Positions 11,240 to 49,258 of a stretch of DNA of 64,000 nt are shown here, one piece after another. A model generated the notes under the pieces. The model saw only the letters and a list, made by a program, of their open reading frames with translations. It was not told the DNA's origin and did not search any database. The stretch is taken from positions 2,604,001 through 2,668,000 of the forward strand of contig NZ_CP030064.1 of the NCBI RefSeq assembly GCF_003990725.2, written 5' to 3'. How positions within the stretch are numbered: the first letter of the stretch is position 1; every line of letters begins with the position of its first letter. A program made the translations under genes and the position numbers. This stretch comes from Halorubrum sp. PV6. GTDB lineage: Archaea; Halobacteriota; Halobacteria; Halobacteriales; Haloferacaceae.

Positions 11240-13234
11240 ATGGAGTTAGAGGCGATCCCCGGCGTCGGCGCGAAGACGGCCGCGTCGCTCCGCGAGCTCG
11301 ACGACCCGGTGGCGACCGTCGAATCCGGCGACGTGGCAGCGATCGCTCGCGCGCCGGGCGTGAACGAGGCGCGGGCCGCCCGCATCGCCCGCGGCGCGAT
11401 CCGGCGGCGACACGGCGACGACGGGCGGGTGTTGGCGACCGATCGCGCCCGCGAGGTGTACCGCTCGGCGATCGATCTCCTGCGCGAGCGCACCGTCACC
11501 GACTACGCCGCGAAGCGGCTGGAGACGTTCTACCCGAGTGCGGCGGCCTCGCGGATCGAGGAGGCGCAGGCGTTCGTCGAGTCGGCGGTCGAGCGCGAGC
11601 CCGCTCCCGCGGTCCGGGAGGCGCTCGCCGGGGTCGAACCCCTCGTCGACCCGAAGACAGTCCGGGTCCGCGACCGCTGTCTCGCGACGGCCGACGCCGA
11701 GACGCTCGCCCGCGCGGAGTCCGCGGTGCCGGAGCTGTCGGTCGAGACCGTCGACGATGCCCGCGACGTCTCCGAGCTGGCGCGGTCGTACGCGACCGTG
11801 ATCGTCTTAGACGAGTCGTTCGCCGGGCTCGACGTGGACGGCGACGTGCACGTCCGGCCGGACGCACTTGAGAACCCGGCCGAGACCGTCCCCGAGCGCC
11901 TGCTCGCCTTTTTCGCCGCGAACCGCGAGCGGCTGGCGGCGGCGGCGGCGGTCCACGAGGCGGCGGACCTCGCTCCGGCCGCCGACCTCGACGCGCTCCG
12001 AGGCGCGCTCGACCGGCTCGACGACGACGGGACGATCGTCGGCGACGCGGAACTCGAACGGCTGACGGCCGCCGTCGACGACTTAGACGCCGCGGTGTCG
12101 ACCGCGGAGTCCGTCGCCGACGACCGGCTGCGCGACGCGATCCGCGAGCGCGACGTGACCATCGAGGGGACCGACTTCCTCTCCCTCGTCGAGCAGGGCG
12201 CGCGGGTCGACTCGCTGCTCGACCGGGAGCTCGCGGACGAGTACGACGCCGCAATCGAGCGCGCCCGCGAACACCTAGTCGACGCGCTCCGGCTCGAACC
12301 GGACGAAGCGGAGCTGGCCGCGCGGGTCTTCGGCGACGACCCCTCGTTCCCGGTCGAACACGACGAGACCGCGGTGTCGCGGCTCCGCACGGAGCTTTCG
12401 GCGGCGCGCGACCGGCGGGCCGCCCGCCTGAAAGCGGAGCTCGCGACCGACCTCGGCGCGCTCAGAGAGCCGGTCGAGGAGTTGGTGCGGGACGCCCTCG
12501 AACTCGACGTGGAGCTCGCCGTCGCGCGGTTCGCCCGCGACTTCGACTGCGTGCTGCCCGACGTGGTCGGGCCGGACGCGGCGGGGGCGGAAGGCGGCGG
12601 GTTTCGGATCGAGGGCGGGCGCTCCCCGCTCCTCGACGTCGACTTCAGCGAGGCCGAACCGATCGACTACGGGGTGTCGGGCGCGACGCTCCTCTCCGGC
12701 GTTAACTCCGGCGGGAAGACCTCGACGCTCGATCTGGTCGCGCTCGTGGTCGTCTTAGCGCAGATGGGGATGCCCGTTCCCGCGAAGTCGGCGACCGTCG
12801 AGCGGTTCGAAGAGGTCCACTACTACGCGAAATCGCAGGGCACCCTCGACGCGGGCGCGTTCGAGGCGACGCTCCGGGACTTCGGCGACCTCGTCGAGGG
12901 CGCGGACGGGCGGCTCGTGTTGGTCGACGAACTCGAATCGATCACGGAGCCGGGCGCCTCGGCGAAGATCATCGCGGGGATCCTCGAAGCGCTCGACGAA
13001 CAGGACGCCACCGCCGTCTTCGTCTCGCACCTCGCGCGGGAGATCCGCGACGCCGCCGACTTCGCGGTCGCCGTCGACGGCATCGAGGCGGCCGGGCTCG
13101 TCGACGGCGAACTCGAGGTGAACCGCTCGCCGCGAAAGGGGCACCTCGCGCGGTCGACGCCGGAGCTCATCGTCGAGAAACTCGCCGGCGACCGCGACAG
13201 CGACTTCTACGAGGCGCTGTTAGAGAAGTTCTGA
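11240..13234 (+). CDS. MutS-like ATPase with N-terminal helix-hairpin-helix
   Basis: 664 residues. The N-terminus (about 1-55) has two helix-hairpin-helix-like repeats, LEAIPGVGAKTAASLREL and IARAPGVNEARAARIA. A long helical, Glu/Arg-rich region follows (about 150-450), then a MutS-type ABC ATPase: Walker A SGVNSGGKTST near residue 487, the MutS segment MGMPVPAKSATVERFEEVHYYAKSQG (interrupted here for length), Walker B LVLVDELESIT near 558, and VFVSHLAREI. The classical MutS mismatch-binding domain I (with Phe-x-Glu) is absent, as is a Smr nuclease domain. It therefore resembles the MutS5/MutS2 branch found in haloarchaea, which acts in recombination or other DNA transactions rather than simple mismatch recognition. 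Alone in its transcription unit. Confidence 0.8.
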   Translation: MELEAIPGVGAKTAASLRELDDPVATVESGDVAAIARAPGVNEARAARIARGAIRRRHGDDGRVLATDRAREVYRSAIDLLRERTVTDYAAKRLETFYPSAAASRIEEAQAFVESAVEREPAPAVREALAGVEPLVDPKTVRVRDRCLATADAETLARAESAVPELSVETVDDARDVSELARSYATVIVLDESFAGLDVDGDVHVRPDALENPAETVPERLLAFFAANRERLAAAAAVHEAADLAPAADLDALRGALDRLDDDGTIVGDAELERLTAAVDDLDAAVSTAESVADDRLRDAIRERDVTIEGTDFLSLVEQGARVDSLLDRELADEYDAAIERAREHLVDALRLEPDEAELAARVFGDDPSFPVEHDETAVSRLRTELSAARDRRAARLKAELATDLGALREPVEELVRDALELDVELAVARFARDFDCVLPDVVGPDAAGAEGGGFRIEGGRSPLLDVDFSEAEPIDYGVSGATLLSGVNSGGKTSTLDLVALVVVLAQMGMPVPAKSATVERFEEVHYYAKSQGTLDAGAFEATLRDFGDLVEGADGRLVLVDELESITEPGASAKIIAGILEALDEQDATAVFVSHLAREIRDAADFAVAVDGIEAAGLVDGELEVNRSPRKGHLARSTPELIVEKLAGDRDSDFYEALLEKF

Positions 13235-45804: not shown

Positions 45805-46695
45805 TCACTCGACGAGGCGCTCGATCTCCGTGACGAGGATGCCGGTCGCGCCGACCGACTTCAGTTCGGAGATGGTCGCGAACACGTCGCGCTCCTCGAC
45901 GACGGCGTGGACCGCCACCATGCCGTTCCCGTTCTCGTCCGCCTCCACGTCCATGACGGTCGGCCCGCCGAGGCCGGGGATCACGTCTTTCACCGCGTCG
46001 AGCCGGTCTTTCGGAGCGTTCATCATCAGGTAGCGGCGCCCGTCGGCGGCGAGGACGGACTCGAAGGCGGTCATCACCTGCTCGACTTTCGGGTCATCGA
46101 CGACGTCGGGCCGCGCGAAGAGCCGCACCGAGGAGTCGAGCACGTCGTCGATCACGGCGAGCCGGTTCACCTTGAGCGTCGTCCCCGTCGAGGTGATGTC
46201 GACGATGGCGTCGGCCATGTCGACGTGGGGGGTCAGCTCCGTCGCGCCCGTCACGGTGACCACGTCGGCGTCGACGTCCACGCGGTCGAGGTAGGCGCGC
46301 GTCACCGCCGGGAACTCGGTGGCGATGGCGCCGCCGGCGAGATCCTCGACGGTCGAGACGTCGCCGTCTTCGGGCGCCGCGAGGACGAGTTTACAGGAGC
46401 CGTACCCCAAATCGAGCAGATCCACGAGGTCGTCGTCGGCCGCCGCGGTCGCCGCGTCGGCGACGCCGCCGGACTCGGCCGCCTGATCGAGGCCGGTGAT
46501 GCCGAGGTCGGCCGCGCCGTCCCGGACGTATTCGGGGATGTCCGCCGCCCGAGCGAAGAGGATGGAGACGTCGGGGTCGACGGTGTCGGCGTACAGCTGG
46601 CGGTCGGCGGTCTCCTCGACGTGGAGCCCGGCGCGCTCGAGGAGTGAGAGCGTCGGGTCGTGTAGGCGGCCCTTGTTGGGAACGGCGATGCGCAT
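45805..46695 (-). CDS. hisG: ATP phosphoribosyltransferase (long form)
   Basis: 296 residues from ATG 46695. The start [20 protein letters not shown], the DLGITGLDQ region and [20 protein letters not shown] match HisG. The C-terminal 75 residues ([25 protein letters not shown]...) form the regulatory ACT-like domain that binds histidine in the long form, so a HisZ subunit is not needed. The enzyme performs the first step of histidine synthesis. It stands alone, convergent with the GIY-YIG gene. Confidence 0.96.
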
Positions 46696-46762
46696 ACGCG
46701 ACGACTCGCGGGGACAGGGGGAAACGTTTTCGTCCGGGGAGCGGCGCAGGTGTCGACGCGAG

Positions 46763-47125
46763 ACCGTTTATAAACAAACGCGGTGGTGCGTGCCTGTGAG
46801 CGCCCGGAGGGCGCGAACAGCACCGCGCGAGGGAGTCGCTGGCTCCCGGAGCGAAGCGGAGGGTGCCAGCGACGAGGCTGGGGAGGCGTGAGGTGCGGTT
46901 GCGGACGGGCGGGAATCGAAGGGGCAGCCGCGAGACGGGCGTAGACGACGTAAGGACCGCAGGAGCGAGCAACGCGAGCGACGAGGACCGAAGCGAGTGT
47001 ACGCCCGTCTCGCGGCTGGGGCTTCGGGGGTGTCCGTCACCGTATCGATCGCAACGATCGCTAACCAAGCGACTGGGGCTTCAGGGGGCGTTCGCTGTCA
47101 GTCCGCAGTCAACCATTTATAAACG
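46763..47125 (+). ncRNA. Candidate structured non-coding element between hisG and uvrB
   Basis: About 360 bases with no convincing protein frame but strong secondary structure. A TATA-like tttataaa at 46767-46774 is followed by a stem (46835-46843 with 46865-46873, with a further ccc/ggg inside), then a perfect 19-bp stem (46925-46943 with 47000-47018, loop 56 bases), then a cgatcg/cgatcg pair (47046-47051, 47055-47060). The decamer ctggggcttc occurs twice (47016-47025, 47073-47082). A second tttataaa at 47116-47123 probably belongs to uvrB. From memory, similar sequences recur in Halorubrum intergenic regions. It could be a transcribed RNA, a REP-like repeat or a non-autonomous mobile element; strand is a guess from the TATA position. 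Confidence 0.5.
46925..47018. repeat. Perfect 19-bp inverted repeat, 56-base loop
   Basis: Left arm 46925-46943 and right arm 47000-47018 are perfectly complementary. The loop is rich in gcgag and gagcg repeats. This is the longest perfect inverted repeat that I found in the window and the core of the structured element. Confidence 0.9.
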
Positions 47126-47203
47126 CCCGAACAGCTGAGCGAGAGTCCAGCCGCCACCTGTCGCCGCGCCGCTCAAGTGCGTCGCCCCCCAACGACGCGT
47201 ATC

Positions 47204-49258
47204 GTGAGCGACGCCGACTCCCCCCTCTCGGAGGACCGCCCGACCGTCGACCGACCCCTCCGCGTCGACGCCCCGTTCGAGCCCGCGGGCGACCAGCCGG
47301 AGGCCATCGAAGGGTTAGTCGAGGGGTACGAGTCGGGCGCGAAAAAACAGACCCTCCTCGGCGTAACGGGGTCCGGGAAGACGAACACCGTCTCGTGGGT
47401 CGCCGAGGAGTTAGACCAGCCCACCCTCGTCTTGGCCCACAACAAGACCCTCGCGGCCCAGCTGTACGAGGAGTTCCGCGAGCTGTTCCCGGACAACGCC
47501 GTCGAGTACTTTGTCTCCTACTACGACTACTACCAGCCGGAGGCGTACGTCGAGCAGACGGACACGTTCATCGACAAGGAGATGTCGATAAACGAGGAGA
47601 TCGACCGCCTGCGACACTCCGCGACGCGCTCGCTTCTCACCCGCGACGACGTGATCGTGGTCGCGTCGGTGTCGGCCATCTACGGTCTCGGCGACCCGCA
47701 GAACTACCGGGACATGGCGCTCCGGCTTGAGGTCGGCGAGGAGGTTGGCCGCGAGGCCCTGCTCGCCCGCCTCGTCGACCTGAACTACGAGCGCAACGAC
47801 GTGGACTTCACGCAGGGCACCTTCCGGGTGCGCGGCGACACCGTCGAGATATATCCGATGTACGGGCGCTACGCGGTTCGCGTGGAGCTGTGGGGCGAAG
47901 AGATCGACCGGATGATCAAAGTCGACCCGATGAAAGGCGAGGTCGTCTCCGAGGAGCCGGCGGTGATGCTCCACCCGGCAGAGCACTACTCGATCCCCGA
48001 CGACAAACTGGAGCAGGCGGTCACAGAGATCGAGGACCTGATGGAGAAACGCGTCAGCTACTTCGAGCGACAGGGCGACCTGGTCGCCGCCCAGCGCATC
48101 GAAGAGCGGACCACGTTCGACTTGGAGATGCTCCGGGAGGCGGGCTACTGCTCCGGGATCGAGAACTACTCCGTCCACATGGACGATCGTGAGTCGGGCG
48201 ACGCCCCCTACACCCTCCTCGACTACTTCCCCGACGACTTCCTCACCGTGATCGACGAGTCCCACCAGACGATCCCGCAGATAAAAGGCCAGTACGAGGG
48301 GGACAAGTCCCGCAAGGACTCGCTCGTCGAGAACGGCTTCCGGCTCCCGACCGCCTACGACAACCGCCCGCTGACCTTCGACGAGTTCGAAGAGAAGACG
48401 GACCGCACCCTCTACGTCTCGGCGACGCCGAGCGACTACGAGCGCGAGACCTCGGACCGGATCGTCGAGCAGATCGTTCGGCCCACGCACCTCGTCGACC
48501 CGAAAGTGGAGATCACCGAGGCGACTGGCCAGGTCGAGGACCTCCTCGAACGGGTCGGCGACCGGATCGAACGCGACGAGCGCGTGCTCGTCACCACCCT
48601 CACGAAGCGGATGGCCGAGGACCTCACGGAGTACTTCGAGGAGGCGGGGATCGACGTGGCGTACATGCACGACGAGACGGACACCTTGGAGCGCCACGAG
48701 ATCATCCGCGACCTCCGCCTCGGCAACATCGACGTGTTGGTCGGGATCAACCTGCTCCGCGAGGGGCTCGACATCCCCGAAGTCTCGCTCGTCGCCATCC
48801 TCGACGCCGACCAGGAGGGGTTCCTCCGCTCCACGACGACGCTCGTCCAGACGATGGGGCGGGCCGCCCGCAACGTCAACGGCGAGGTCGTCCTCTACGC
48901 GGACCGGACGACCGACTCGATGCAGGCCGCCATCGAGGAGACCCAGCGGCGCCGCGAGATCCAGGTCGAGTACAACGCCGAACACGGCTACGAGGCGACC
49001 ACCATCGACAAGCCCGTCGGCGAGACGAACCTCCCCGGTTCGAAGACGGACACCTCGTCTGTCAGCGTCGGCGACGTGGAGAGCAAAGAGGAGGCGACGG
49101 CACAGATCGAGGCGCTCGAAGACCGGATGGACGAGGCCGCGAGCAACCTGGAGTTCGAGCTGGCGGCCGACATCCGCGACCGGATCGCGGAACTCCGGCG
49201 CGCGTTCGACCTCGACGGCGGCGACGACGGCGTCCCGGCGCCGATGATAGACGAGTGA
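47204..49258 (+). CDS. uvrB: Excinuclease ABC subunit B
   Basis: 684 residues from GTG 47204. Walker [17 protein letters not shown] near residue 45, the beta-hairpin region [25 protein letters not shown]-like VIDESHQT near 345, motif [21 protein letters not shown], and the UvrC/UvrA-interacting C-terminal UVR motif ([21 protein letters not shown]). UvrB verifies lesions delivered by UvrA. The TATA box at 47116-47123 gives a leader of roughly 55-60 bases. The in-frame ATG upstream at 47177 would extend into non-conserved sequence. uvrC is not in the window. Confidence 0.97.

Follow-up and report, generated by a model that had tools for sequence, protein, structure and literature searches.

REP and REPIN elements are intergenic hairpin repeats built of two short hairpins, present in over 100 copies and vertically persistent. 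These bacterial elements go together with RAYT transposases (PMC3116915). Among archaea, the PATEs are palindrome-associated transposable elements of Haloquadratum walsbyi (PMC3119063), and the class I intergenic repeats of halovirus HF2 are promoters of 56-58 bp (PMC8707807). A MITE containing a minisatellite is described in Porphyromonas (PMC4596501), and comparative genomics has provided candidate structured RNAs of archaea (for example PMC2864571).

Here, we describe a repeat of Halorubrum in relation to these systems. The window is a stretch of 64,000 nucleotides from Halorubrum sp. PV6 (contig NZ_CP030064.1, positions 2,604,001 to 2,668,000), and its gap between hisG and uvrB (segment 46763-47125) contains a single copy of a folded repeat that is non-coding and had not been annotated before. 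The open reading frames in this gap are short or basic and none is plausible, in agreement with an earlier note on this DNA that had seen no protein gene in the segment. The copy starts at about 46780, and its 3' end, which is not exactly definable, falls at about 47110-47125. The features are as follows, with window coordinates and, where it applies, the basis in brackets.

46695, - strand: start of hisG
46767..46775, no strand assigned: TATA-like TTTATAAAC, palindromic, just outside the 5' end of the element
46780..47125, + strand: whole element copy, from GCGGTGG to a degenerate second tail unit (own-genome matches; 5' boundary, n = 178; tail, n = 161)
46780..46828, + strand: P1, a two-step hairpin with a GA/GA internal loop (covariance counts, 87 copies)
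46829..46834, + strand: GAGGG(A), the invariant, unpaired spacer between P1 and P2 (alignment of copies)
46835..46873, + strand: P2, a hairpin of GTCGCTGGC/GCCAGCGAC (covariance counts and direct sequence check)
46874..46893, + strand: core GAGGCTGGGGAGGCGTGAGG, invariant and unpaired (alignment, exact-motif scan)
46917..46943, + strand: P3 5' arm, consisting of CGAAG, a GGG internal loop and a 19-nt arm
46944..46999, + strand: P3 apical region, 2-bp steps alternating with GA/GA and a small end loop (RNA folding)
47000..47026, + strand: P3 3' arm, consisting of the 19-nt arm, a GGG internal loop and CTTCG
47016..47072, + strand: tail unit 1, 57 nt, beginning CTGGGGCTTC
47073..47125, + strand: tail unit 2, diverged, with another TTTATAAAC at its end (47116-47124)
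about 47205, + strand: start of uvrB

Several of these features had been picked out previously from the letters alone, and direct inspection agrees. CAGCCGCGAGACGGGCGTA (46925-46943) and TACGCCCGTCTCGCGGCTG (47000-47018) form the perfect 19-bp inverted repeat around a loop of 56 bases, the reported 9-bp stem pairs GTCGCTGGC with GCCAGCGAC (46835-46843/46865-46873), the decamer CTGGGGCTTC stands at 47016 and, 57 bases on, at 47073, and CGATCG occurs as the claimed pair, at 47046 and 47055. The inverted repeat is the long stem P3, and the two decamers belong to the tail units. When the segment was dinucleotide-shuffled 100 times, the longest perfect inverted repeat reached at most 12 bp (mean 7.8), compared with the 19 bp of the real sequence. 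TTTATAAAC marks both ends of the segment, at 46767 and again at 47116. The claim that the features lie behind a TATA-like box holds for this copy, whereas across the family a TATA-like tract is present upstream in only about 60% of copies. The upstream TTTATAAAC could be the promoter of hisG, on the - strand, and the tract before this copy may be the hisG promoter in reverse just as well as a promoter of the element; the second TTTATAAAC may serve uvrB. Folded as RNA, the segment scores z = -4.8 on the + strand and z = -5.3 on the - strand relative to shuffles and, because both lie about 5 SD below the shuffles, single-sequence folding does not choose the folding strand. An Rfam cmscan of 46000-48000 with E up to 1 placed nothing on 46763-47125, returning two weak matches only, both off the element.

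Complete copies have a constant order of parts: a sharp 5' end, P1, P2, the invariant core, P3 and a tail of 57-nt units. The 5' boundary falls between GC and GGTGGCGCG (178 copies). P1 has the family form GCGCGTGCC-TGT-GA-GCGCCC..GGGCGC-GA-ACA-GCACGCGC, P2 occurs as 145 distinct sequences among 204 copies, and the core, with family form GAGGCTGGGGAGGYGTGAGG, is followed by a GC-rich linker and then by P3. Across the family, P3 comprises CAAAG or CGAAG, a GGG/GGG internal loop, 10-19 bp and an apical ladder of 2-bp steps and GA/GA, and next comes CTGGGGCTTTG, which is also the opening of the first tail unit. The tail is a variable tandem array whose units carry TATA-like boxes; their number varies (tail set of 161 copies), and the spacing is most often 57 nt (57 of 95 measured spacings). 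Two copies in the genome of the window (L002 and L005; G000:C1:1418915 and 238477) have tail arrays of four to five near-identical 57-nt units, a pattern that suggests recent expansion and a usable variable-number marker.

Within 800 kb (400 kb each of genomes G152 and G115), nearly all copies contain both the 5' domain and P3. A few copies are without P3 (L014, L018, L079, L096 and L146 near 11303-11424), having lost it between GGGG runs as in a typical hairpin deletion. In two G115 copies (C1, region coordinates 258235-258389 and 307807-307900, to which 535000 is added for contig coordinates), the P3 interior is inverted relative to the rest, as if the two P3 arms had recombined. The 800 kb also contain 19 doublets, each made of two perfect triloop hairpins with a short linker between them (about 40-50 nt in total), all of them within elements, at a few recurring positions and with conserved linkers (G152:C49 1-400000; G115:C1:535001-935000; L127-L166). 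The doublets look like a second, nested module.

That similar sequences recur in Halorubrum intergenic regions had been suspected in the earlier note, and this proved right. With a covariance model of the 5' domain built from 14 copies, 39 of 39 Halorubrum genomes are positive, with 10 to at least 101 copies each, and two congeners have at least 150 and at least 145. Copies are intergenic where examined and have a density of about one per 20 kb. The genome of the window, with 15-16 copies by the same model, is at the low end of the Halorubrum range; when it is searched with the segment, about 15 other loci match at 71-85% identity, and the larger matches keep the order of parts. Matches outside Halorubrum are weaker. 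An order-wide scan gave matches in 38 of 146 genomes overall and, among the matches listed in an exact-motif scan of named genomes, most are Halorubrum, with some Haloparvum, Halobellus and Halorussus. Distant forms retain the P1-P2-core block, and some also P3, and their tails are different tandem repeats. In family f17, which is probably Halorussus, the block is followed by other tandem repeats, some with AGCTAG (L045, L046, L050-L053, L057 and L063), with as many as 24 copies in a genome at E <= 1e-4. Plasmids yielded only four matches, all partial, and 50,697 phage records and IMG/VR yielded none. The 58-bp promoter repeats of HF2 were rejected as a source of the tail on the basis of this phage and IMG/VR result and of differing motifs. 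The open-licence papers searched contain no description of the repeat family, and the sources consulted carry no annotation of it. Among the non-coding repeats seen to date in Halorubrum genomes, it appears to be the most frequent.

The base pairing of P1, P2 and P3 is maintained by massive compensatory change. Over the 18 pairs of P1 and P2 in 87 copies, 95.0% of pair cells are paired versus 83.5% after shuffling and the covariation score is 0.356 versus 0.154, values reached by none of 500 shuffles, in an alignment that was fitted to the model and thus leans towards structure. Both sides have changed at 13 of the 18 pairs, and sliding the partner by 1-3 columns abolishes pairing. Model-free counts for P3, made on 159 copies, give the same picture and include many kinds of compensated pair. 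At the orthologous hisG-uvrB site, 15 or 16 of 16 P3 pairs are retained in 8 of the 12 species with a readable P3, the letters differing. Covarying stems, proposed in the earlier note as a check, are very strongly evident in both data sets. Mispairs of the G.U kind far exceed A.C (104:11 in P1/P2, 36:14 in P3), which shows that it is the + strand that folds, whether as RNA or single-stranded DNA. In one P1 pair, the U.G wobble is the commonest state (66 U.G versus 17 C.G). The copies at G152-region 62541 and G115-region 61647 have most of P3 in common, and the arm differs by T-A to C-G, a single compensating change. Preservation of a strand-specific fold in almost all copies means that it is important, whether to spread or to function.

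If to function, the copies could be a multicopy structured RNA family in which the + strand of each is transcribed, the RNA acting in trans or in the 3' UTR of the upstream gene, with spread being secondary. Covariation and the G.U preference on the + strand are what such a family would display, as are an invariant unpaired core, conserved GA/GA and GGG/GGG internal loops, peripheral hairpins nested as in structured RNAs, and copies that are intact almost everywhere. Persistence at orthologous sites with compensatory change also points this way. Such a family is the main rival to a mobile element, and it accords well with conservation at old sites. However, the element region has no Rfam match at E up to 1, and copy number ranges from 10 to over 145 between congeners; we consider the RNA reading possible, if on balance doubtful.

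Spread is addressed by filled and empty sites. Genomes G152 and G115 align in the same order over most of 400 kb, with an identity of about 87-90%. They share about half of their copies, and at least three copies occur in just one of the two. The site at G152:C49 284040 was followed in 52 genomes: the element is present in six species (G152, G163, G104, G184, G179 and G178), and in about 25 others the flanking genes lie next to each other, across a short gap or in a contiguous match. With six species filled and about 25 empty, parsimony makes this element a gain. Two more sites carry the element in G152 and lack it in G115. On these alignments the element inserts into intergenic gaps, and the earlier suggestion of a spreading, non-autonomous repeat is in part upheld, by the one site filled in six species and empty in about 25. 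No target-site duplication is readable at filled and empty sites, whose flanks have diverged and are 80-96% identical at best. The hisG-uvrB gap of two congeners (L069 and L072) has, instead of the element, a short ORF of about 110-120 aa that by eye looks like a SHOCT-type protein.

The G152:C49 284040 insertion also records exchange between copies. Among G152, G163 and G104, it is 99-100% identical in P3, 96-98% in the linker, 93-96% in the tail and 93-95% in the upstream flank, and P1 differs wholesale in all three (67-69% identity). P2 of G152 is 69% identical to that of G163 and G104, which are identical to each other and have a form found verbatim in six other copies. When element bodies at orthologous sites of G152 and G115 are compared, the orthologues form the closest pair at 3 of 9 sites only and are often no closer than paralogues. 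Evidently, whole hairpins are swapped while the remainder of the insertion stays. Gene conversion takes place in polyploid haloarchaea, and its ectopic form, between copies, would be the simplest cause of the swaps. Template switching and gene conversion might even re-make the palindromes with no selection at all, covariation then being a mutational by-product. Whole-hairpin replacement and the very long perfect arms prove that such exchange occurs, but palindrome correction would erase the GA/GA and GGG/GGG mismatches, the unpaired core and the U.G-dominant P1 pair, all of which are kept, and we regard this account as very improbable.

Genomic context was counted at 160 sites with rough gene calls. 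Gaps between convergent genes hold 56 of the copies (about 35%), compared with about 15% of all gaps over 50 bp, and co-directional gaps have no sense/antisense bias (41 versus 38). An antisense orientation to flanking genes, seen as 23 of 41 in 800 kb, was gone at the 160 sites. These placements could suit a chromosomal DNA element (an insulator, terminator or nucleoid-binding site) kept for the host at gene ends, for which the intergenic location, convergent-gene enrichment, even spread and tandem 57-bp units with TATA-like boxes all speak. Yet the absence of orientation bias, with the caveat that gene calls are rough, and the more than tenfold difference in copy number between congeners argue otherwise, and a double-stranded site needs no strand asymmetry of its fold; such a host site seems unlikely.

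For 94 of the 160 copies the 5' neighbour is a gene on the same strand, whose stop lies a median of 57 nt upstream, as would be convenient for a transcribed RNA. Against transcription of each copy, 41% have no same-strand gene upstream and no fixed promoter position was found upstream of 178 copies. In many copies an AT-rich TATA-like tract lies about 8-21 nt before the element, and 105 of the 178 have a TATA-like hexamer within 55 nt upstream; because the tract is so close, transcription from it would begin within P1.

Along the G163 chromosome, copies look randomly oriented and randomly spaced, and the regional strand bias expected for IS200/IS605-like single-strand movement was not found there. 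Scans with element profiles of TnpB loci (three genomes) and Y1_Tnp loci (four genomes) revealed no shared ends, and elements occur near TnpB/Y1 transposase loci at about background density; a copy lies within 1.5 kb of only one of eight Y1_Tnp loci in four genomes (L324), on one side only. An IS605/TnpB or Y1 transposase parent was rejected for the loci searched, which do not carry the element ends. Retrotransposition with 5' truncation was also rejected, because almost every copy is full length and those that are incomplete lack P3, not the 5' end. The 0.3-Mb second contig of the window's genome (G000:C2) has many TnpB-type genes, several of them short or partial.

Dispersal, the filled and empty site, strongly varying copy number and random orientation indicate that the element spreads, and the missing fixed promoter, the 41% of copies without a same-strand upstream gene and the more than tenfold copy-number range favour a non-autonomous element moved in trans. 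With a probability of roughly 0.55, we interpret the hisG-uvrB copy as a member of a genus-wide, non-coding, non-autonomous interspersed family that is moved in trans via its folded + strand. Machinery supplied in trans would recognise this strand and move the element, the folded form most likely being single-stranded DNA, in the manner of HUH-transposase substrates. AT-rich TATA-like sites may be the preferred targets, and slippage would lengthen the tail arrays. In the polyploid cell, copies would recombine and thereby exchange hairpins as units, and swapping and selection together could keep the folds intact. Several points weigh against a trans-moved family: a purely selfish, dead copy would not be expected to persist at hisG-uvrB across the genus for so long with its fold intact, no target-site duplication is readable in flanks that are 80-96% identical at best, and neither a mobilising enzyme at the TnpB/Y1 loci nor a regional strand preference on the G163 chromosome was found.

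More tentatively, the repeat may represent a new class of archaeal element, with transposition or function via a complete one-strand fold, hairpins as exchangeable cassettes that recombination passes from copy to copy, and inheritance of the fold rather than the sequence. The fold would cover P1, P2, the core and P3, the conserved GGGG runs possibly forming quartets in the high-potassium cytoplasm. Should the repeat be mobile, a well-studied archaeal genus has, or once had, an active machinery that handles folded single strands in trans; should it be transcribed, archaea have a very large structured-RNA family. Either way, dozens of copies per genome with one fold and different letters are a natural experiment, and the family allows a direct test of selection on structure versus hairpin conversion.

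So, how does the element compare with known systems? Like PATEs, it is short and non-coding, lacks terminal inverted repeats, contains palindromes, exists as many diverged haloarchaeal copies and is targeted by further small elements (PMC3119063). However, the palindromes of PATEs lie near the termini and are related to the ends of IS605-type elements (PMC3119063), whereas the Halorubrum element has hairpins throughout, no IS605 parent sharing its ends and a tandem 57-nt tail. Of the palindromes that PATE and IS605 elements have at both termini, it has P1 at the 5' end; at the 3' end is the tandem tail, without a strong hairpin. With REP/REPIN elements it shares the nature of an intergenic hairpin repeat, over 100 copies and vertical persistence, but it is about 300 nt long, with three distinct helices and a conserved unpaired core, and no RAYT-like Y1 gene flanked by its copies was found at eight Y1_Tnp loci in four genomes. 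MITEs are likewise non-autonomous, short and able to contain tandem repeats; unlike them, the Halorubrum element has no terminal inverted repeats, its 5' and 3' consensus not being complementary, and no target-site duplication is seen, the flanks of filled and empty sites being too diverged to read. The HF2 repeats resemble the 57-nt tail units in length and in an AT-rich promoter-like motif, but their motifs CTTTAAGT and CGTCTNNTAGAG (PMC8707807) are not in the tail consensus. Candidate structured RNAs of archaea are defined by covarying helices and conserved loops, which the element also has; it differs in its far higher copy number, dispersed insertion, hairpin swapping and lack of an Rfam match. 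The element combines covarying helices and G.U tolerance on one strand, as in structured RNAs generally, with the filled and empty orthologous sites of a mobile repeat.
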